A DNA stretch of 25,097 nt from the IMG/VR virus record IMGVR_UViG_3300007510_000067, positions 1 to 25,097 of that record; one strand, 5' to 3'. Made by a program: the position numbers and the translations under genes. Source of the DNA: a virus. Below are positions 5,268 through 25,097 of this stretch, in pieces (positions within the stretch are counted from its first letter, which is position 1; each line of letters opens with the position of its first letter). The notes under the pieces were generated by a model, which saw only the letters and a program-made list of their open reading frames with translations, searched no databases and had not been told where the DNA came from.

Positions 5268-6725
5268 ATGGATTTTGATTTAAACGCAATACTGGCTTTA
5301 TTGTCCGGTACTATCTATGGATTAATAGTTGGTATTATCCCGGGTGCTGGTGCAACAACAGGCCTAATTGCAATATATGGATTCATTTACATGTTTCCAG
5401 ATCCCTACTTAGCAGTAATCTTTTGTATGGCGGTAGTAGCTGCTTCAACCACTGCTGACACCTATACATCAGTTTTATTGGGAATTCCTGGAGCTAATTC
5501 TGCAGCGGCAACAATGGTAGATGGCTTTCCTCTTGCCCAACAAGGTAAAGCAACATATGCAATCTCTGCAGCAATAACAACATCAACCATTAATGGTTTA
5601 TTATGGGGAATTCCGGTATTCTTGTTCTTCCCATATTACGCAGAAATAATGCTATTCTTTGGTACACCTGAATTGTGGATGTTTACTATTTTAGCTATGG
5701 CAACAGTAGTATTTGTATCAAATAGACATTTTGTTAGAGGCATAATTGCTTTAGCTACTGGTATCTTTATTGGATTAATTGGTATTGATCCTCAAACAGC
5801 TACAGATCGATATACATTTGGCTGGGACTACTTAGCAGATGGGGTACAATTAATTACATTAGTGGCAGGATTATTTGCTGTTCCTGAAATGTTAGATGGT
5901 CTTAGAGATTCGCAAGTAAGGGCAAAGGCTAGTAAAGATGGATATAAACAAACAATAGATGGTATAAAGGCTGTTTGGAAACATAGATGGTTAGCCTTAA
6001 GAGGTGGTATAATTGGAGCATTAGTTGGAGCTTTACCTGGACTAGGAGGTGCAGTATCTGATTGGATGGCTTATGGTCAAGCAGTAGCAACTACTAAGAA
6101 CCCTAAACCAGAATTTGGTAAAGGTAATATCATTGGAGTTATTGGGCCGGAGGGATCTAATAATGCTCAGAAAGCAACAAGCATGGTACCTACAGTTTTA
6201 TTTGGAATTCCCGGTGCATCTTTTGCTGCTATCTTACTCGGGTTATTTGGAATGCTTGATTTTGAACTTGGGTCTATGGATCTATTAGCAGATACAAAGT
6301 TCTTTGAAAGTATGACTTATGGATTTTTATGGGCAACTGTACTAATAGCTATTATTGGTTTCTTCATCACGAAGTACGTCACAGCTGTTGTCAATGTCCC
6401 ATATAAATATTATTTTCCTATACTACTTACTATTATTGTAGCAGCTTCTGTGCAATATACTGGTGGTTGGGAGGATTATGCAATGTTTATCATTGCAACA
6501 ATCTTGGGTGTTTCTTGTAAGCATTTCAAGTTTAACAGAGCGGCTTTACTCATAGGTTTTATATTAGCTGAACGGGTAGAAGCTTTAACTTTGCAAACGT
6601 TTTCATTATATAATGTTGGTGATTTATTTACTAGGGTTACATTTGATATACTATTTGCTATGACCGTCGTAGTTTTAGTTTACGGCATTAAAAAGGGGTG
6701 GAACTCAAAACTTGAGTTCTCTTAA
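5268..6725 (+). CDS. tctA: TctA: large membrane subunit of a tripartite tricarboxylate transporter
   Basis: The 485-residue product is rich in hydrophobic segments (about a dozen) and has the two repeated signature loops of the TctA family: GIIPGAGATTG (around P25) and GALPGLGGAVSDW (around P257), plus TSVLLGIPG and PTVLFGIPGASFA. TctA forms the sodium-driven channel of TTT systems, which take up citrate or other carboxylates with a periplasmic binding protein (TctC) and a small membrane subunit (TctB). It appears full length and intact. No Shine-Dalgarno sequence is visible in the 21-nt gap before ATG. A tctC-like gene follows; no clear tctB is present. Confidence 0.93.
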   Translation: MDFDLNAILALLSGTIYGLIVGIIPGAGATTGLIAIYGFIYMFPDPYLAVIFCMAVVAASTTADTYTSVLLGIPGANSAAATMVDGFPLAQQGKATYAISAAITTSTINGLLWGIPVFLFFPYYAEIMLFFGTPELWMFTILAMATVVFVSNRHFVRGIIALATGIFIGLIGIDPQTATDRYTFGWDYLADGVQLITLVAGLFAVPEMLDGLRDSQVRAKASKDGYKQTIDGIKAVWKHRWLALRGGIIGALVGALPGLGGAVSDWMAYGQAVATTKNPKPEFGKGNIIGVIGPEGSNNAQKATSMVPTVLFGIPGASFAAILLGLFGMLDFELGSMDLLADTKFFESMTYGFLWATVLIAIIGFFITKYVTAVVNVPYKYYFPILLTIIVAASVQYTGGWEDYAMFIIATILGVSCKHFKFNRAALLIGFILAERVEALTLQTFSLYNVGDLFTRVTFDILFAMTVVVLVYGIKKGWNSKLEFS

Positions 6726-6750
6726 ACAATTATTCTATATAAGGAAAAAA

Positions 6751-7827
6751 ATGAATAAAAAAATAATTGCATTAGGTTTAATGCTATCATCGTCAATTGC
6801 ATTAGCAGACACTTTTACATTTATCTCGCCACAGAAGCCAGGTTCTGGTACATCTCAGTGGACTGATATTGTTGTTAAGGAGTTAAGAAAGCATATGCCA
6901 GGAGATACTTTAAATGTACGTTACTTCCCAGGAGCTAGAGATATTCCTGCAATTAACGCATTTCAAGAAGAGCTTAGATATGATAACAATAACATCGTAG
7001 TATCACATGGCGGTAATGGTGTTAGTTTCTTACAAGAACCTACAGCCAAATACAAGTATGGTGATTGGGATTCAATTGGTATGATGAATTTAAATATTAT
7101 TAATGCTAAATCAAAGGACTTTAATCCATATGAAAAGAGTTTCTGGTCTAGTAATAAAGTAAAATTTGCTGCTTCATCTGGTAGAGTTCCAGATGCAATG
7201 GGTATGACATTATTACTTTGTGGTCCTGGTAAATCAGTTGAAGAATACGGTGCTTGCTTCAAAGAGAATGTTAATTGGGTTAAGGGTATGAAGAACGGTG
7301 AACGTCGTTTAGCTTTTAAGAGAGGCGAGTTAAATGCTGATAGAGAAAATCCAGCAGCATACAAAAAACATATTATGCCTAATGAAAAATCTGAACTATG
7401 GTTCCATCATGGTATCCTTCAAGCAGATGGCTCACATGGTGATGATATTAACTTCCCAGGTTATCAAGTAGAAATTCTATTCGAAAAGATGTATGGGGTT
7501 AAACCAGAAGGTGATTTTTACAATGCATATAAGCTAGTTAAATCATTTAGAGATTCACTACAAAAAGCAATGTGGGTAAATAAAAATAACCCTAATCGTG
7601 ATAAGTTAGTGGCGGCTCTTACTAAGATGTCAAATGACGCGGAAAGTATTAAGGCTATTCAGAAGAAAGTTGGTAAATATGATTGGGTAATTGGTGATGC
7701 TGGTAATAAGCAACGTGATACTCTAATGTCATTTATCACTGAAGATGCCTTAACAGATCTAGTTAAATTCTCTAAAGAAACATTAGATGTTAATGCAACC
7801 GTGAAATCTGATCTTATCAATAAGTAA
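6751..7827 (+). CDS. tctC: TctC-like periplasmic solute-binding protein
   Basis: Starting at ATG 6751 (AAGGAA at 6741-6746), the 358-residue product opens with a textbook signal peptide: MNKK, a hydrophobic core, then ALA before D20. The mature start FTFISPQKPGSGTSQWTDIVV and RYFPGARDIPAIN resembles TctC proteins, which begin with a PG.G.D.. loop and a PGAGG-type loop. The rest is divergent and somewhat longer than the usual 320 or so residues. It presumably captures a substrate in the host periplasm for TctA. It lies 25 nt after tctA and abuts the next gene without a gap. Substrate unknown. Confidence 0.75.
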   Translation: MNKKIIALGLMLSSSIALADTFTFISPQKPGSGTSQWTDIVVKELRKHMPGDTLNVRYFPGARDIPAINAFQEELRYDNNNIVVSHGGNGVSFLQEPTAKYKYGDWDSIGMMNLNIINAKSKDFNPYEKSFWSSNKVKFAASSGRVPDAMGMTLLLCGPGKSVEEYGACFKENVNWVKGMKNGERRLAFKRGELNADRENPAAYKKHIMPNEKSELWFHHGILQADGSHGDDINFPGYQVEILFEKMYGVKPEGDFYNAYKLVKSFRDSLQKAMWVNKNNPNRDKLVAALTKMSNDAESIKAIQKKVGKYDWVIGDAGNKQRDTLMSFITEDALTDLVKFSKETLDVNATVKSDLINK

Positions 7828-8710: not shown

Positions 8711-8725
8711 GACCGAGTGAATATA

Positions 8726-9310
8726 ATGATTCATAATTTAGCTTTTTCAGGTGGTGTTGATTCATCTTTATTATTATATCTTTTAGCAGAGCAGGCCAGT
8801 GATGGTATAATTATTAATACTCGGACCATTGACGTAAAAAGAAGACCAGCTGTTAAAATGCAGGTTGAAAAAATTATTGAATTTATATTAAATGAATTTC
8901 CCAATGCAACTATTTTAAGCTCATTTAAAGAGATTCCCAATGAATTAGATTTATCTCAGAAAGAATTTCAGAAGGCTAAAGCTATATTATCGAAAGAATA
9001 TTTTAAAGGGTGTTTGTCCGGTATAACTAACCAAATGCCTAAAGATTATTATATAGGTAGATACCATCCCAAGTCTGATATGACATATGCTGAAGATGCA
9101 GTTATGTCTTTAAGAAAGAATATTAAAGGTGTTTATGCTAATATGGATAAAAGGGATATTGCTTTAATATATAAAGAAAGAGGCTTATTACAGACTTTAT
9201 TTCCTTTAACTATATCATGCACATTCCCTATTAATTTAACTGATCCTTGTAACAAATGCATTGGTTGTAAAGAAACTTACGCGGCTTTTTATGACTACCT
9301 ATATAAATAA
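8726..9310 (+). CDS. QueC-like 7-cyano-7-deazaguanine synthase (PP-loop ATPase)
   Basis: SGGVDSS (residues 8-14 from ATG 8726) is the PP-loop ATP pyrophosphatase motif. The C-terminus holds C165, C175, C178 and C181 (DPCNKCIGCKE), the zinc-binding spacing typical of QueC, which converts 7-carboxy-7-deazaguanine to preQ0. The middle is divergent and shorter than cellular QueC (194 versus about 220-230 residues). The start could also be GTG 8717; GAG at 8715-8717 favours ATG 8726. Phage QueC is known from preQ0-type DNA modification pathways, but no QueD, QueE, FolE or DpdA is in this window. Confidence 0.65.
   Translation: MIHNLAFSGGVDSSLLLYLLAEQASDGIIINTRTIDVKRRPAVKMQVEKIIEFILNEFPNATILSSFKEIPNELDLSQKEFQKAKAILSKEYFKGCLSGITNQMPKDYYIGRYHPKSDMTYAEDAVMSLRKNIKGVYANMDKRDIALIYKERGLLQTLFPLTISCTFPINLTDPCNKCIGCKETYAAFYDYLYK
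9302..9309 (+). promoter_or_regulatory. T4-type late promoter element TATAAATA upstream of hsp20
   Basis: An exact TATAAATA, the T4 late promoter consensus, overlaps the stop codon of the QueC-like gene and lies about 85 nt before hsp20. The motif is all A/T and occurs several times by chance in this DNA, so the support is mainly its position before a gene that lacks a copy of the GGGTTTACTTTTG promoter. Confidence 0.5.
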
Positions 9311-9394: not shown

Positions 9395-9826
9395 ATGGCA
9401 AACTTTAATCAAGATTTGTTCTTCGGCTTCGATTCATTATTTGATTCGATCAATCAACCTCAAAAACAACAGTCGTACCCACCATATAACGTAATCAAGA
9501 AAGGTGATAATCATTACTTTATTGAAATCGCAGTGGCTGGCTTTAAATCAGAACATATCAATTTGACTTTAGAGAAGGGTATATTAACAGTAGAAGGTAC
9601 AAGACCTCTTACTGATGAAGCAACGGACTATGTTCATAAGGGCATTTCAACAAGAGACTTTACAAGATCATTTACATTAGCAGAAACCATTAAAGTGGTT
9701 GGCGCAGATATTGTGGATGGATTGTTATTGATTGGTCTTGAAAATGAAGTACCAGAGGCAGAAAAGCCACAAACTATTAACCTTGGTGAATTTAGTAAAA
9801 AAGCTAAAGAACTACTACTAGGTTAA
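9395..9826 (+). CDS. hsp20: Hsp20 / alpha-crystallin small heat shock protein
   Basis: The 143-residue protein has the IbpA-like alpha-crystallin domain: YPPYNVIKKGDNHYFIEIAVAGFKSEHI at the start of the fold, LTVEG, HKGISTRDFTRSFTLAE, and the GLL.IGLENEVPE strand, ending with KPQTI that supplies the IxI-type tail. Small Hsps hold unfolding proteins and are common in T4-like marine phages, where they may protect virion or replication proteins. AGGAG lies just upstream of ATG. A TATAAATA element and a hairpin in the leader suggest late expression. Confidence 0.92.
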   Translation: MANFNQDLFFGFDSLFDSINQPQKQQSYPPYNVIKKGDNHYFIEIAVAGFKSEHINLTLEKGILTVEGTRPLTDEATDYVHKGISTRDFTRSFTLAETIKVVGADIVDGLLLIGLENEVPEAEKPQTINLGEFSKKAKELLLG

Positions 9827-20183: not shown

Positions 20184-20213
20184 TTAACATATTCCTGCTA
20201 GTTGTGTTATAAT
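20184..20213 (+). promoter_or_regulatory. Promoter P6, divergent family member before the lipoprotein gene
   Basis: TGTTATAATATACAT is identical to P1 and TATAAT is at 20208-20213, but the upstream part is TTAACA (20184-20189) with an 18-bp spacer rather than GGGTTTACTTTTG. It therefore keeps the extended -10 and has a nearer-consensus -35. The +7 position reads ATA, not ATG, and the next gene has a normal AAGGAG. Confidence 0.75.
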
Positions 20214-20243
20214 ATACATATAAACAATAAAAAGGAGTTAAAA

Positions 20244-21074
20244 ATGAAAAAACTAATATTATTAACATCAATTGCTTTACTAGCATCTTGTAGTTCAACT
20301 GGTGGCAATTATTATGCAACTGATAACTATGGTTTAATTAGCAATGTTGGTAATTCATTAAGTGCCAATAAGTCTTATTCATATCAACATGTTGAAATGG
20401 ATGGTGAGTTAGTAGAGAGATTTGAATTAAGACATGGTGATTGTGGTACTGATTATAAATCTGACTATACTGATTGTGGTAGAGGCAAGGGTAGACAAGA
20501 AGTAGACACCCAAACAACCGAACATGAAGTTATTGAAGTATTAGACTATACAAAACCTAATATAGTATGGTATTCATACTCAATTTACTTCCCTAAAGAT
20601 TATGAAAATTATCAAAGGGATTATAATGGAATATCCACTATTTATGGTCAGGTTAAGTTGTATGGATGGGATATGCCAATGTGGAGTGTAAAGGGTGTGG
20701 AAGATGGACTTATGTTTGAAGCAGATACCTCAGGTGGTACATGTATCATTGCCCCTTGGGAAGAGGTTAAAGGAAGATGGACTAATATTACAGTAAGGGC
20801 AGATTATGATACTAAACATCGTGTTAATGCTCCTAACGGGTATATGTTTGATCCAAAAACAGACTATTCATATGCTGATGTTTGGGTAAATGGTGAACAA
20901 GTACCGGGGTGTATTACCTTTCAACCACTACTCAATAGTTGGACTCCAGGTCAATCCAGAAAACCTGATATGAGCAATAGAGTTCACTTTAAGCATGGTA
21001 TCTATAGTACATTTGCTGATAAATATTTTCCACCACAAGTGGTGTATTACAAGGATATTAAAATACATAAATGA
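20244..21074 (+). CDS. Exported lipoprotein, polysaccharide-lyase-like
   Basis: From ATG 20244 (AAGGAG at 20232-20237) the 276-residue product has a lipoprotein signal: KK, a hydrophobic run, and lipobox LLASC with C16 as the lipid-carrying cysteine. The mature part has RFELRHGDCG..., IVWYSYSIYFPKDY, YGQVKLYGWDMPMW, ADVWVNGEQVPG and a final VVYYKDIKIHK. This is the strand pattern of jelly-roll polysaccharide lyases of the heparin-lyase/PL20 sort. It would sit in the host envelope. An early-type promoter argues against a tail protein. The substrate is unknown, and activity could be lost. Confidence 0.65.
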   Translation: MKKLILLTSIALLASCSSTGGNYYATDNYGLISNVGNSLSANKSYSYQHVEMDGELVERFELRHGDCGTDYKSDYTDCGRGKGRQEVDTQTTEHEVIEVLDYTKPNIVWYSYSIYFPKDYENYQRDYNGISTIYGQVKLYGWDMPMWSVKGVEDGLMFEADTSGGTCIIAPWEEVKGRWTNITVRADYDTKHRVNAPNGYMFDPKTDYSYADVWVNGEQVPGCITFQPLLNSWTPGQSRKPDMSNRVHFKHGIYSTFADKYFPPQVVYYKDIKIHK

Positions 21075-21342: not shown

Positions 21343-21485
21343 TTGATTGGTTAAACATTATTGCAATTATTATACTACTTGGTATAGTAGGTATAGTAAT
21401 GGCAGTATTTATTTTATTATGGACACCATTTCTTTTATTAGGAATGGCATTGGATTATTATGACAGCAGAAAAACTATACGATAA
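21330..21485 (+). CDS. Small single- or double-pass membrane protein
   Basis: This 51-residue frame encodes SELVDWLN followed by a long hydrophobic stretch from about residue 9 to 40 (IIAIIILLGIVGIVMAVFIL..., then WTPFLLLGMAL) and a charged end DYYDSRKTIR. It is long enough for one or two membrane passes. It overlaps the genes on both sides by 13 and 26 nt. Small phage membrane proteins of this kind include holin-like, exclusion and lysis-timing proteins, but nothing here identifies one. Confidence 0.5.
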   Translation: MSELVDWLNIIAIIILLGIVGIVMAVFILLWTPFLLLGMALDYYDSRKTIR

Positions 21486-21780
21486 GTGGTCATTCGTAGA
21501 AAAAGATTTAGATCAAGACCAGTGGTATGTTAAATTAACCGGTGGTAAATATCATGGGGTTGTATATAACTATAACTCTATTAAAGCAAATGAAACCACA
21601 GAGTCAATTGACTTTGATTATGAAGTTGTTGATTGGTTAGATGATAACCCTCACGGTGAACCTGAGTTTAATCAAGTAGCAGGTGATATACTTCAACTTG
21701 TGTTGAAAGATGCAATGGAAGCAGGTGATTATGTATTAGGTGATAAAGGTGAATCAAGAAGCACTGATAATACTAGCTGA
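21460..21780 (+). CDS. Hypothetical acidic protein
   Basis: The 106-residue protein (MTAEKLYDKWSFVEKDLDQD...) is strongly acidic with a strand-like first half (QWYVKLTGGKYHGVVYNYNSI) and an acidic second half with VVDWLDDNPHGEPEFNQVAGDILQLVLKDAMEAGDY. It is unknown to me but looks like a typical small conserved phage protein. Its end overlaps the next gene by 41 nt in another frame, which is more than most overlaps in this window. Confidence 0.6.
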   Translation: MTAEKLYDKWSFVEKDLDQDQWYVKLTGGKYHGVVYNYNSIKANETTESIDFDYEVVDWLDDNPHGEPEFNQVAGDILQLVLKDAMEAGDYVLGDKGESRSTDNTS

Positions 21781-22015
21781 AGAGTGTGCTGAAATCCAGC
21801 AAGCCGTTGCTAAGATTCAGCGATTTGGTGATGATGACAAGAACGTTAGACAATTAGAAAATGAAATTGGTGATGTTCTTGCCATGATTGCTATTCTTGG
21901 TCATGAACATGATATAGACCATGACGTAGTTCTGCGACGTGTTCCTGCTAAACTTCGTAAATTAAAGAAATGGAGTTCCATTAATGATCTTGATGACATA
22001 ATCAAAAGTTTATAA
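21740..22015 (+). CDS. Second MazG-like nucleotide pyrophosphohydrolase
   Basis: The 91-residue frame has the MazG core motifs ILAEECAEIQQAV (E14, E15, E18) and LENEIGDVLAMIAIL (E42, D45), followed by a helix and a basic tail (PAKLRKLKKW). This is the single-domain all-alpha NTP pyrophosphohydrolase layout. The start is GTG 21740; no strong ribosome site is visible and GTG 21749 is an alternative. It differs clearly from the mazG at 16606, so the two are not recent duplicates. Substrate unknown. Confidence 0.78.
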   Translation: MIKVNQEALIILAEECAEIQQAVAKIQRFGDDDKNVRQLENEIGDVLAMIAILGHEHDIDHDVVLRRVPAKLRKLKKWSSINDLDDIIKSL

Positions 22016-22018
22016 ATA
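22011..22018 (+). promoter_or_regulatory. T4-type late promoter element TATAAATA
   Basis: An exact TATAAATA overlaps the end of the second MazG-like gene and lies 28 nt before the ATG of the first capsid-tagged gene. The downstream block encodes proteins that need to be made during head assembly, which fits late expression. The motif alone is weak evidence because it is pure A/T, but position and content support it. Confidence 0.6.
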
Positions 22019-22045: not shown

Positions 22046-23116
22046 ATGAAATCATTTAAGCATCATTATTTAACCGAAGGTAATACATCAAAGGCCTTTG
22101 ATATGGAGCATGTAATTGTTTCTAGTGCTGGAGGCCCTTCATTTAAATCTAAATCTATTAAACCTGAGATTGGCGATAAGATTGTTAGCTCTTTGAAATT
22201 AATAGGTAAAGGATCATTCCCTGCCAATAGTTATCCGGCATCTAAAAGATGGAATGAACATTTCCCATCAGGTGCAAAAGGGTCAACACTCACACCAAAG
22301 ACTGATTTTATTATTGGTAAGAAAAAGATATCTTTAAAAACAGGTGATGCACAACTAATGAGTGGTGGGAAAAATGAAGCATCAGCTACATTTTCTGTTG
22401 CGGCAGAAATGTCAGGTACTCAATTAGATAAAGCCATTATGGATATGCAAAAGCATATCGAAAATTTATTACCTAATACTGATATGACTAAATTAGATAT
22501 TAAAGGTAGTAAAACAGAATTAACAAAGAAAGGTATGTTTAAAGACATTGATATTCTTAAAAAAGCTGATGATGCACATCATGCGTTTAAAAATGATTTA
22601 AGAAAATTATTTGCTTCTAATGCAGCATTTGCAAATGCTTTTGTATTTGAAGCAATGACTGGCCAAGTTAAATTTGGTAATAATCCAGGTACTGCAGATA
22701 ACTTTTTAGTTACAGACTATGATGGTAATGCTACTATACATACTGTAACATCGATGGGGGATTCATATGTTAAGAAGATAGCCAAACAGGTTAAGCCTGA
22801 TGTTAAATTCAAATCATCTCAAAAGACTGCATCTGCTCATAAATCAATTGAAAACCCTAAAGGTAAGACTGGATATTATACATTTTGGAGTGCTGTAGGT
22901 ATTGGTATCAATATGGTAGTTAATGAAGCACTTGAGGATAGTAAAGATGATATGTTAACTGAAGGTTGGATTAAAGATGTAGTATCTAAAATTAAGAATT
23001 GGTTTAAGAAATTCTGGGCTAACATTAAGAAACAAATTGGGGACTCCTGGAGTAATCTAATGGAGTTCGCTGGGGTGTTACCAGAAGTTACTTTTAACAA
23101 TACACCAAAATGGTAA
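22046..23116 (+). CDS. Capsid-tagged protein with PD-(D/E)XK-like nuclease motif
   Basis: The 356-residue protein starts MKSFKHHYLTE-G, resembling a T4 capsid-targeting sequence with a gp21-type cleavage site after E11. Residues 84-98 read PKTD...ISLK, with D87 and K98 spaced as in PD-(D/E)XK nucleases (S96 in the acidic position). QLMSGG (103-108) and FVFEAMTGQVKFG (199-211) may add active-site residues such as E202. A second LTE-G (304-307) precedes a 50-residue tail rich in Lys and Trp. There is no clear Shine-Dalgarno sequence. I infer a DNA-cutting internal head protein; the nuclease call is from motif spacing only. Confidence 0.5.
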   Translation: MKSFKHHYLTEGNTSKAFDMEHVIVSSAGGPSFKSKSIKPEIGDKIVSSLKLIGKGSFPANSYPASKRWNEHFPSGAKGSTLTPKTDFIIGKKKISLKTGDAQLMSGGKNEASATFSVAAEMSGTQLDKAIMDMQKHIENLLPNTDMTKLDIKGSKTELTKKGMFKDIDILKKADDAHHAFKNDLRKLFASNAAFANAFVFEAMTGQVKFGNNPGTADNFLVTDYDGNATIHTVTSMGDSYVKKIAKQVKPDVKFKSSQKTASAHKSIENPKGKTGYYTFWSAVGIGINMVVNEALEDSKDDMLTEGWIKDVVSKIKNWFKKFWANIKKQIGDSWSNLMEFAGVLPEVTFNNTPKW

Positions 23117-23763
23117 CATTTAAATCATACATTACAGAAGGTAAAAACGACAAGGCCATATTCCATGTTGTCTTTATGGCAGGTGGCCCTGGTTCTGGTA
23201 AGTCTTATATCAATAAGAAACTAGGCCTTAGAGCTTTAAACTTTGTTGATATTAACTCAGATTCTGCATTTGAACATGCCATGAAGAAATCCCTATTAGA
23301 CCTTAACATGCCGAAAGGCCAAGACTATGCTAGGGATATTGTTAGGGGCCTTGCTAAGAAAACTACAATGAAAAAGAAAGGTCACGCACTCGATGGTAGA
23401 CTAGGTATGGTCATCGATGGTACTGGTGCAAAGGCTAATAAGATTCAACAAATGGTTGATGACTTTACTAAGTTAGGTTATGAATGTGCCATGGTGTTTG
23501 TAGATACTGATCAACAAACTGCTCTTGATAGAAATAACCAAAGGGAAAGATCATTAAGGGCTTCTCTTGTTACTAAGATGTGGAAGGAAGTACAAGACAA
23601 TAAGCCAACTTTTAAGAAATTATTCAAGGAACATTTTTATATTATTGATAATTCAGATGGTGCAGACGGCACAGATATAAATAAAGTTTATTCTAAACTA
23701 GCTACTTGGTCTAAGAAGTTACCAAACAATCCTCAAGTTAAAGCTTGGATGGACGCAAACTAA
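23110..23763 (+). CDS. Capsid-tagged P-loop kinase (polynucleotide kinase / zeta-toxin-like)
   Basis: The 217-residue protein begins MVTFKSYITE-G, a probable capsid-targeting tag cut after E10. FHVVFMAGGPGSGKSYINKKLG holds Walker A (G25-S32); FVDINSDSAFEHA and MVIDGTGAKANK (D103) are strand ends near the site; DRNNQRERSLR (140-150) is an arginine-rich lid. This order matches P-loop kinases such as T4-type polynucleotide 5'-kinase and zeta toxins. The phosphate acceptor cannot be told. It overlaps the previous gene by 7 nt and the next by one base. Confidence 0.72.
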   Translation: MVTFKSYITEGKNDKAIFHVVFMAGGPGSGKSYINKKLGLRALNFVDINSDSAFEHAMKKSLLDLNMPKGQDYARDIVRGLAKKTTMKKKGHALDGRLGMVIDGTGAKANKIQQMVDDFTKLGYECAMVFVDTDQQTALDRNNQRERSLRASLVTKMWKEVQDNKPTFKKLFKEHFYIIDNSDGADGTDINKVYSKLATWSKKLPNNPQVKAWMDAN

Positions 23764-24029
23764 TGAAATCATTTAAAGAACACTTAAACGAAAATGCACC
23801 GGCCCTTAGGTTTAAAGATTTATTACCTAAGAAGATTAAACATAAGCTTAACTTATTACTTAAGAAAGATAAGTATAAGGCAGCAATTAAAATGAAACAT
23901 GAGATACATCGAAAGTATCCAGATTATTCAGAGGCTAAGATACTGCGAATAGTTTCTGATTTTACCCACATTAAACTTAAAGAACTTAAAGCTGTATTAA
24001 ATAGAAAAACCAGATATGAAGAAGTTTAA
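23763..24029 (+). CDS. Small basic capsid-tagged protein (internal-protein-like)
   Basis: I start at ATG 23763, which overlaps the previous TAA; an earlier ATG 23745 would place the tag inside the chain. The 88-residue product begins MKSFKEHLNE-N and is then dominated by Lys, Arg and His (LLPKKIKHKLNLLLKKDKYK..., LKAVLNRKTRYEEV). Small size, high basic charge and the N-terminal tag recall T4 internal head proteins IPI-IPIII. The central part (KAAIKMKHEIHRKYPDYSEAKI) is helical. Function unknown; in T4 one such protein blocks a host restriction enzyme. Confidence 0.62.
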   Translation: MKSFKEHLNENAPALRFKDLLPKKIKHKLNLLLKKDKYKAAIKMKHEIHRKYPDYSEAKILRIVSDFTHIKLKELKAVLNRKTRYEEV

Positions 24030-25097
24030 AAGCTATATTACAGAAGCTAAGAATACCCACATGGGTCATATTGAAGATGCTGTTATCGATGGTGGTGTTG
24101 ACGGTACTAGAGCAGCTATTAACGCATTAAGAGACTTGAGGAATATGTTAGGAGGTCATACAAATGACACAAAAGCAGTCACAGTTAAATGGGATGGAGC
24201 CCCTGCAGTATTCTGTGGAATCGACCCGAGCGACGGAGAGTTTTTTGTCGCGAAAAAGGGAATTTTTAACAAAGAACCTAAAGTGTATAAGTCATTTAAT
24301 GATATTGATGATGATACTTCAGGTGACTTATCTGATAAGCTTAAAGTTGCTTATACTGAATTAAAGAAGTTAGGTATTAAGAAAGGTGTATATCAAGGTG
24401 ATATTATGTTCACCAAAAATGATTTAAAGAAGGCTACTATTGATGGAGAGAAATACATAACATTCCATCCAAATACTATTGTATATGCAGTACCAGTAGC
24501 TGATGCTAAAGAGATAACACAAGCTAAGATTGGTGTTGTATGGCATACGAAGTACACAGGGGCAACCTTTGATACTATGTCTGCTTCATTTGGAGTTAAA
24601 GGAAATGAGTTTAAAAAGGTATCATCAGTATGGAGTAAGAGTGCTGACCTTCCTGAAGTACCTATGGCAACACTCACAAAGAAAGAAACTGATGCAATAT
24701 CTAAACACATTTCTCTTGCAGGTAAGATATTTCAAAAGATATCAAGTGGTGTACTTAAGGATGTTTCAACCAATAAAGAGATTAATCTATATATTAATAC
24801 ATTTAGAAATACTAAGGTTAGAGCTCAATCAGAAATTAAGAACACAACAACCCACGTTAAGGAATTGATGACTTGGATACATAATAGGTACGATAAAGAA
24901 ATTGATAAACTTAAATCTGACAAGGGTAAAGCACGTAAGAATGCTAAGAAGATTGAAGCACTTGAATGGTTCAATAAAGAAAATACAAAGAATTTAATTC
25001 TTATGTTCGATATGCAAAATCATTTGGTTGATGCCAAAAGAGAATTACTTAAGCATCTTAATAAGATGGATAGTATAAATACCTTTGTGAAAACAAA
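24016..25097 (+). CDS. Capsid-tagged nucleotidyltransferase/ligase-like protein (partial)
   Basis: The frame starts at ATG 24016, overlaps the previous gene by 14 nt, and runs 360 codons to the right edge without a stop. It begins MKKFKSYITE-A, the fourth tag of the set. VKWDGAPAVF carries KxDG (K58, D60, G61), the covalent AMP-site motif of DNA and RNA ligases; FFVAKKGIF, GVYQGDIMF and KIGVVWHTKY follow in the order expected for motifs Ia, III and V. The second half is helical and highly charged. Ligase activity is inferred from motif I and the order of strands; it could be an inactive relative. Confidence 0.6.
   Translation, partial: MKKFKSYITEAKNTHMGHIEDAVIDGGVDGTRAAINALRDLRNMLGGHTNDTKAVTVKWDGAPAVFCGIDPSDGEFFVAKKGIFNKEPKVYKSFNDIDDDTSGDLSDKLKVAYTELKKLGIKKGVYQGDIMFTKNDLKKATIDGEKYITFHPNTIVYAVPVADAKEITQAKIGVVWHTKYTGATFDTMSASFGVKGNEFKKVSSVWSKSADLPEVPMATLTKKETDAISKHISLAGKIFQKISSGVLKDVSTNKEINLYINTFRNTKVRAQSEIKNTTTHVKELMTWIHNRYDKEIDKLKSDKGKARKNAKKIEALEWFNKENTKNLILMFDMQNHLVDAKRELLKHLNKMDSINTFVKT

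Follow-up and report, generated by a model that had tools for sequence, protein, structure and literature searches.

Why should four consecutive, overlapping genes encode proteins that start alike and then share nothing? This question is raised by the 3′ end of IMG/VR record IMGVR_UViG_3300007510_000067. The window, that is, the whole stretch of DNA analysed, is the complete 25,097-bp record and represents a fragment of a T4-like phage genome, in which genes for a sliding clamp, clamp loader, family-B DNA polymerase, UvsX, a DnaB-like helicase, ThyX, and Hsp20 were recognisable. At its 3′ end (22046-25097), four open reading frames (ORFs) have N-termini resembling the capsid-targeting tag of T4 internal proteins (IPs). 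We consider it very probable that this block is a late operon of capsid-targeted cargo packed in the head of a T4-like marine phage (Kyanoviridae type). Its features are as follows:

22011-22018, + strand: late-promoter octamer TATAAATA, located 27 bp before the start codon (ATG) of ORF1
22046-23116, + strand: ORF1, 356 aa; tag, conserved core, and cationic amphipathic tail
22046-22078, + strand: ORF1 capsid-targeting tag MKSFKHHYLTE, predicted cut after E11
22955-22963, + strand: second predicted prohead-protease site of ORF1, L304-T-E306 followed by G, from homologue alignment and structural model
22964-23113, + strand: cationic amphipathic ORF1 tail of 50 residues; release as a head peptide of its own predicted
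23110-23763, + strand: ORF2, 217 aa; tagged P-loop kinase of AAA_33 / zeta-toxin / polynucleotide-kinase type
23110-23139, + strand: ORF2 capsid-targeting tag MVTFKSYITE, from translation and pattern search
23182-23205, + strand: ORF2 Walker A motif GGPGSGKS, read in the translation
23763-24029, + strand: ORF3, 88 aa; tag MKSFKEHLNE, then a small basic protein, net +13
24016-25095, + strand: ORF4, DUF6267 (PF19782); 360 aa in the window, running off its end
24016-24045, + strand: ORF4 capsid-targeting tag MKKFKSYITE, from pattern search
24187-24198, + strand: K58-W-D-G motif of DUF6267; K58, D60, and G61 invariant in 37 homologues

The tagged block and its late promoter

The four products start MKSFKHHYLTE-G, MVTFKSYITE-G, MKSFKEHLNE-N, and MKKFKSYITE-A (here and below, a hyphen after the glutamate marks the predicted cut), with the glutamate at residues 11, 10, 10, and 10, as the initial annotation had stated. 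Its claim that the proteins are otherwise unrelated also held, in that the bodies of ORF1-ORF4 show no similarity to one another above chance level (all-against-all blastp, lowest E ~0.01). The mature products of the block are all net basic (+7 to +13). The four-gene extent given originally proved too small. Specifically, in two near-identical longer records (G001 and G002), a fifth tagged gene, which starts MIKGFKEHYLKE-AASEEIIITFGRFNPPTNGHEKLL... and encodes a cytidylyltransferase-like enzyme, follows ORF4. Near-identical longer records put the complete ORF4 at 410 aa, and a complete copy is present in record L042 (6541-7773).

A late element had been reported to precede the block, and TATAAATA is indeed located there. 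This octamer was not enriched in the window alone (7 found vs. 5.8 expected). Among 40 distinct ORF1 homologues, [TC]ATAAATA occurred within 100 bp upstream of 20, versus 1.1 ± 1.0 in shuffles, and this recurrence is evidence, at the level of sequence, for late expression of the block.

Tag pattern statistics and controls

Residues 4 and 7 of the T4 IPIII tag serve mainly in targeting, and residues 8 and 10 in processing (review, PMC9026906). From these T4 positions we formulated a strict regular expression (regex), which requires an aromatic residue at position 4, an aromatic residue or histidine at position 7, I, L, V, or M at position 8, and glutamate at position 10. Three of the 33 ORFs in the window matched, all within the block, and ORF1 differed by one extra residue. 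Across ten related records, two of which overlap the window's own sequence so that the count includes repeats, the regex matched 23 of 1,246 ORF starts and none of 5,093 internal methionines; a search of related phage genomes for this pattern had been proposed initially as a check. In T4, used as a control, only IPII and IPIII were found (2/246 ORFs, 0/845 internal methionines). The S-SM1 control returned one protein only (1/193 ORFs, 0/706 internal methionines), namely the cytidylyltransferase beside DUF6267, a published virion protein. Pooled over all sets, 0 of 6,644 internal methionines matched. Moreover, the tag glutamate and the hydrophobic residue two before it persist across homologues, while the other tag letters vary. 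ORF calls and pattern statistics together confirm, at the level of sequence, four consecutive genes with a T4-type capsid-targeting N-terminus, three of them strict and one with a one-residue insertion.

Prohead protease and virion proteomes

The presence of a gp21-like protease had likewise been put forward as a check, and its outcome does not refute the interpretation. Each of the six complete relatives searched has a gene for the gp21 protease (S77, PF03420), and protease and block are on one contig in the 79.6-kb relative G003, in which DUF6267 is 76% identical, as well as in G004 and G007. We read the cut sites of the capsid protein gp23 by comparison with T4 gp23 (SFLTE-A). The junctions were GFLTE-T in C48C1, AFLSE-A in Melnitz, NFITE-D in G004, AFLGE-I in HTVC008M, SLLGE-A in DLP6, and QILTE-T in S-SM1; that of G003 was less clear (ALNE-T). 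These gp23 junctions are of the same kind as the tag ends (YITE, FITE, FLSE).

Published proteomics are available for homologues of the fifth gene. Its product, an HxGH nucleotidyltransferase similar to cytidylyl/nicotinamide mononucleotide (NMN)-adenylyltransferases, has a CTP_transf_like match just below the cut-off. It is 43% identical over 272 aa to its S-SM1 homologue, and the homologous gene adjoins DUF6267 in S-SM1 and S-SZBM1. Homologues have been detected in purified virions of S-SM1 (T4-GC190; PMC3037559), S-SZBM1 (S-SZBM1_140; PMC9146016), and S-CREM2 (ORF154, gp154; PMC10665884), and similar NMNAT-like proteins have been reported in S-SCSM1 and S-CBWM1. All three virion-detected homologues are tagged, with MKKFSAFLNE-A in S-SM1, MRFRQFIIE-A in S-SZBM1, and MKNFSSFLTE-A in S-CREM2; for this fifth member, existing data in effect amount to the virion-proteomics check suggested earlier. 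The S-SM1, S-SZBM1, and S-CREM2 proteome papers do not connect the enzyme to a targeting tag, gp21 processing, or neighbouring genes. The original claim that the block proteins are packed into the head is therefore supported by the tags, by gp21 in relatives, and by tagged fifth-gene homologues in virions. We infer packaging for ORF1-ORF4 themselves, as well as the reactions of the enzymes, and by analogy with T4 the tags would be cleaved and the proteins injected.

Several observations weigh against packaging and processing as described. The tags of HTVC008M are degenerate, and DUF6267 of cyanophages S-SM1, Syn9, and S-SZBM1 is without a tag. The virion list of S-SZBM1 contains the tagged enzyme but not the adjacent untagged DUF6267, and DUF6267 therefore need not be packaged in every lineage. 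The regex gave one false positive, UvsW of phage C48C1 (identified from its sequence), so that the pattern by itself is no proof. A PF03420 search of the window record, a fragment that does not reach the locus, found no protease, and the two near-identical longer records are likewise fragments without the protease gene. No published virion proteomics were found for this phage or for tagged ORF1-ORF4 homologues, nor any published measurement of the cut or of injection, and phage authors have cautioned that abundant proteins may turn up in virion preparations as carry-over. A conserved E-G, as in the kinase and ORF1 sites described below, could also be structural, and the evidence for processing inside the head is strong, not conclusive.

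Properties of the tagged proteins

The ORF2 product matched AAA_33 (1.4e-12; 48.5 bits vs. a cut-off of 27) and Zeta_toxin (3.2e-12) in Pfam, and phrog_505, polynucleotide kinase, in PHROG (7.5e-11). Together with the Walker A motif, these profiles identify it as a P-loop kinase of AAA_33 / polynucleotide-kinase type. PADLOC gave a single weak match, for this kinase (VakA, E 0.0024).

The best matches of ORF1 are in phages HTVC008M and Melnitz, and its conserved core reads TPKTD...ISLK.G.AQLMSGG. The motif E21...D87...S96xK98 is reminiscent of PD-(D/E)XK nucleases; a search of the ORF1 model against PDB found no fold match (best E 0.5, template modelling score ~0.1), and we did not accept ORF1 as a member of these nucleases on the motif. 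At the second predicted prohead-protease site, E306 is present in 36 of 36 homologues, L304 in at least 90%, and the next residue is mostly Gly. The AlphaFold model has predicted local distance difference test (pLDDT) scores below 50 in two stretches only, residues 1-12 and 299-308, which coincide with the two predicted cuts. The conserved tail that follows (GWIKDVVSKIKNWFKKFWANIKK...) could be membrane-active or DNA-binding once released. We also noted that SSM1_188 of S-SM1 (L264, 2947-3780), which is encoded immediately before DUF6267, contains EPKTDILF...CSMKWGDSFQLTSSG, strikingly like TPKTDFII...ISLKTGDAQLMSGG of ORF1; blastp gives no link between the two proteins.

ORF4 belongs to PF19782 (E 4.3e-87; 293 bits vs. 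a cut-off of 27). DUF6267 was present in 383 phage records, mostly cyanophages, and tagged versions occur in the IMG/VR relatives, C48C1, Melnitz, and DLP6, with the tag E10 retained in 90% or more of the 37 homologues aligned. The KxDG motif resembles motif I of covalent nucleotidyltransferases and ligases, and the QGD and EGYVA...K motifs are likewise invariant or nearly so; EGYVA also occurs in T4 Rnl1. From these motifs, DUF6267 is a putative covalent nucleotidyltransferase (ligase-like). Comparison of the DUF6267 model with PDB returned helical noise only and no ligase fold, while BFVD returned its own family and weak hits that included three RNA ligases (ranks 15, 16, and 31). Profile comparison and alignment with Rnl1 gave nothing significant, EGYVA alone being aligned, and membership of a ligase family was not accepted, there being no significant similarity of fold or profile. 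PHROG 455 puts DUF6267 and cytidyltransferase into one profile, and in BFVD DUF6267 matched a 591-aa S-PM2 protein named cytidyltransferase-like, for which reason the two may work together. A literature search on DUF6267 found no papers.

Domain fusions and the slot before DUF6267

The block is also found in genomes of pelagiphages, methylophages, cyanophages, and Stenotrophomonas phages. In relatives, the slot before DUF6267 holds 14 blastp families, of which six have regex-tagged members and several more have near-tags such as MLKFKEFLSISEA. A shared tag on unrelated slot proteins is what would be expected of an address label on exchangeable cargo. A D..SxK motif considered as common to slot proteins was dropped; it characterises two main families (39/44 and 15/15 strict), is absent in others, and is found in 18 of 411 other ORFs.

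The kinase occurs both alone and in fusions. In relatives, the HxGH enzyme is fused to it in one 745-aa protein (L115), and in Agrobacterium phage Atu_ph07 (L005) the partner is an ADP-ribosyltransferase (ART)-like domain. A glutamate precedes the conserved G..D..IF start of the kinase in 30 of 30 distinct homologues, the residue two positions ahead of this glutamate is hydrophobic in almost every case, and the E-G junction is kept both in stand-alone tagged kinases and inside fusions. Together with the second site of ORF1, the E-G at kinase domain junctions suggests that polyproteins are processed inside the head.

Atu_ph07 also encodes three tandem proteins (L005, 7-4611) with the N-termini MRWEQLTE, MRWEQLNE, and MKWNDLNE. 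All three have YRGM(R/K) ART-like domains in common, and the third is fused to the block's kinase through TSEVTE-GVND. This looks like an independent set of head-targeting tags in a jumbo phage.

Proposed mechanism and alternatives

In the scheme we propose, late transcription would start at TATAAATA, and the overlapping genes would be translated together. Each product would dock on the prohead core through its first ten to twelve residues, and the gp21-type prohead protease would cut after (L/I)xE, leaving mature basic enzymes inside the head; there they would be packaged along with the DNA, to be passed on to the next host. This cargo would comprise the nuclease-like ORF1 protein, the kinase, the small basic ORF3 protein, DUF6267 as a putative covalent nucleotidyltransferase, and, beyond the window, the cytidylyl/NMN-adenylyltransferase-like enzyme; in relatives, some cargo appears to be made as polyproteins in which additional protease-type sites separate the domains. 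More tentatively, and at somewhat less than even probability, the heads may be preloaded with processed nucleotide or nucleic-acid enzymes, some of them polyproteins cut inside the capsid, that act before phage gene expression, with the slot before DUF6267 as a site of effector exchange.

That the tagged proteins are instead prohead-core or assembly factors, acting in head assembly or DNA packaging rather than being delivered as enzymes, is improbable in our view. The T4 core is built from such proteins, most of which are degraded by gp21 (PMC9026906), and in cyanophages the block adjoins head-associated genes. Effectors are a better fit than scaffold, however, for catalytic motifs that have stayed intact (the Walker A motif, the KxDG motif without variation in 37 sequences, and GRFNPPTxGH) and for the exchange of cargo from lineage to lineage, and T4 IPs and Alt, which follow the same tag logic, are injected. 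Low-GC, lysine/phenylalanine-rich starts could resemble each other by composition, and the shared N-terminus might then be due to chance or be a functionless remnant of gene duplication. This is contradicted by the absence of matches among internal methionines, the unrelated bodies, and the persistence of E and the hydrophobic residue two before it; we regard it as already refuted for practical purposes by the regex counts and the kinase E-G junction.

Capsid-targeted cargo being our preferred reading, two further proposals concern the function of the packaged set and do not compete with packaging. A role in nicotinamide adenine dinucleotide (NAD) or nucleotide metabolism, in which an NMN adenylyltransferase-like enzyme and a small-molecule kinase in a NadR-like layout raise NAD or nucleotide pools early, is possible, and we give it about one chance in three. 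It draws on the reading of the fifth-gene homologue as NMNAT-like in the cyanophage proteome papers, on the fusion of HxGH enzyme and P-loop kinase in one protein, and on the CTP_transf_like match just under its cut-off, but the kinase scores with AAA_33/zeta/polynucleotide-kinase families and not with nicotinamide riboside kinases, and DUF6267 and ORF1 are left unexplained. Rather less likely is a kit for nucleic-acid end repair or counter-defence (5′ kinase, ligase-like nucleotidyltransferase, and nuclease-like protein), a preloaded analogue of T4 Pnk/Rnl1 tRNA repair. The polynucleotide-kinase family match, the K58xDG, QGD, and EGYVA...K motifs of DUF6267, the EGYVA of T4 Rnl1, and the weak BFVD RNA-ligase hits point to it, while DUF6267 is without a significant ligase fold or profile match and the nuclease reading of ORF1 comes from motifs alone.

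Other genes of the window

Directly before the block (21460-22015) are a small conserved protein and a MazG-type pyrophosphohydrolase; MazG also precedes DUF6267 in cyanophages. A second TATAAATA is located at 9302-9309, before the Hsp20 gene (9395-9826). Hsp20 is a core gene in cyanophages. At 5268-7827, a gene for a tripartite tricarboxylate transporter of the TctA family (E 8e-98) is followed by a TctC-like solute-binding protein (by eye), a possible auxiliary metabolic pair that is unusual for a T4-like phage. A predicted lipoprotein (signal MKKLILLTSIALLASCSS), polysaccharide-lyase-like by eye, lies between ThyX and small genes (20202-21074), and an SGGVDSS PP-loop protein with C-terminal cysteine motifs and no Pfam match at 1e-5 is encoded at 8717-9310.

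Relation to known systems and implications

T4 IPI, IPII, and IPIII have a capsid-targeting sequence, are processed by gp21, and are injected. Both they and the block have an N-terminal tag of ten residues in which the key positions agree, with E at P1 and an aliphatic residue at P3, and both have basic mature proteins, late genes, and hypervariable tagged cargo. No enzymatic activity is known for the small T4 IPs, whereas among the block's products are proteins of 217-410 aa that have kinase or nucleotidyltransferase motifs; the block cargo is encoded in one operon and in some cases has internal protease-type sites. T4 Alt, an ADP-ribosyltransferase and thus likewise an enzyme, is packaged by a cleaved N-terminal propeptide and injected, and gp21 processes both its ends (PMC9026906); it differs in being another enzyme with another propeptide from a single gene, whereas the block is an operon of tagged enzymes. 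The virion cytidylyltransferase or NMNAT-like protein of cyanophages (T4-GC190, S-SZBM1_140, S-CREM2 gp154) is homologous to the fifth gene and tagged. The polyvalent proteins of phages and conjugative elements (PMC5512222) are multidomain, predicted to be packaged and injected, and proposed to release their domains by proteolysis. They often carry their own peptidase domains, whereas the block fusions (HxGH enzyme-kinase and ART-like-kinase) carry prohead-protease-type sites between domains. What would be new relative to T4 is an operon of enzymatic, exchangeable, tagged cargo in ocean phages, together with the probable processing of polyproteins inside the head.

The tag gives a reason why NMNAT/cytidylyltransferase-like proteins recur in cyanophage virion proteomes, and it provides a simple sequence rule for finding packaged effectors, including DUF6267, in ocean T4-like phages. 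The same rule predicts exact new N-termini, and internal cuts in fusions, that are checkable in existing mass-spectrometry data. Early anti-defence or takeover proteins could be sought in the slot before DUF6267. If heads are indeed preloaded, the enzymes would act in the first minutes of infection, for example in mending cuts made by host defence or in sustaining NAD and nucleotide pools.

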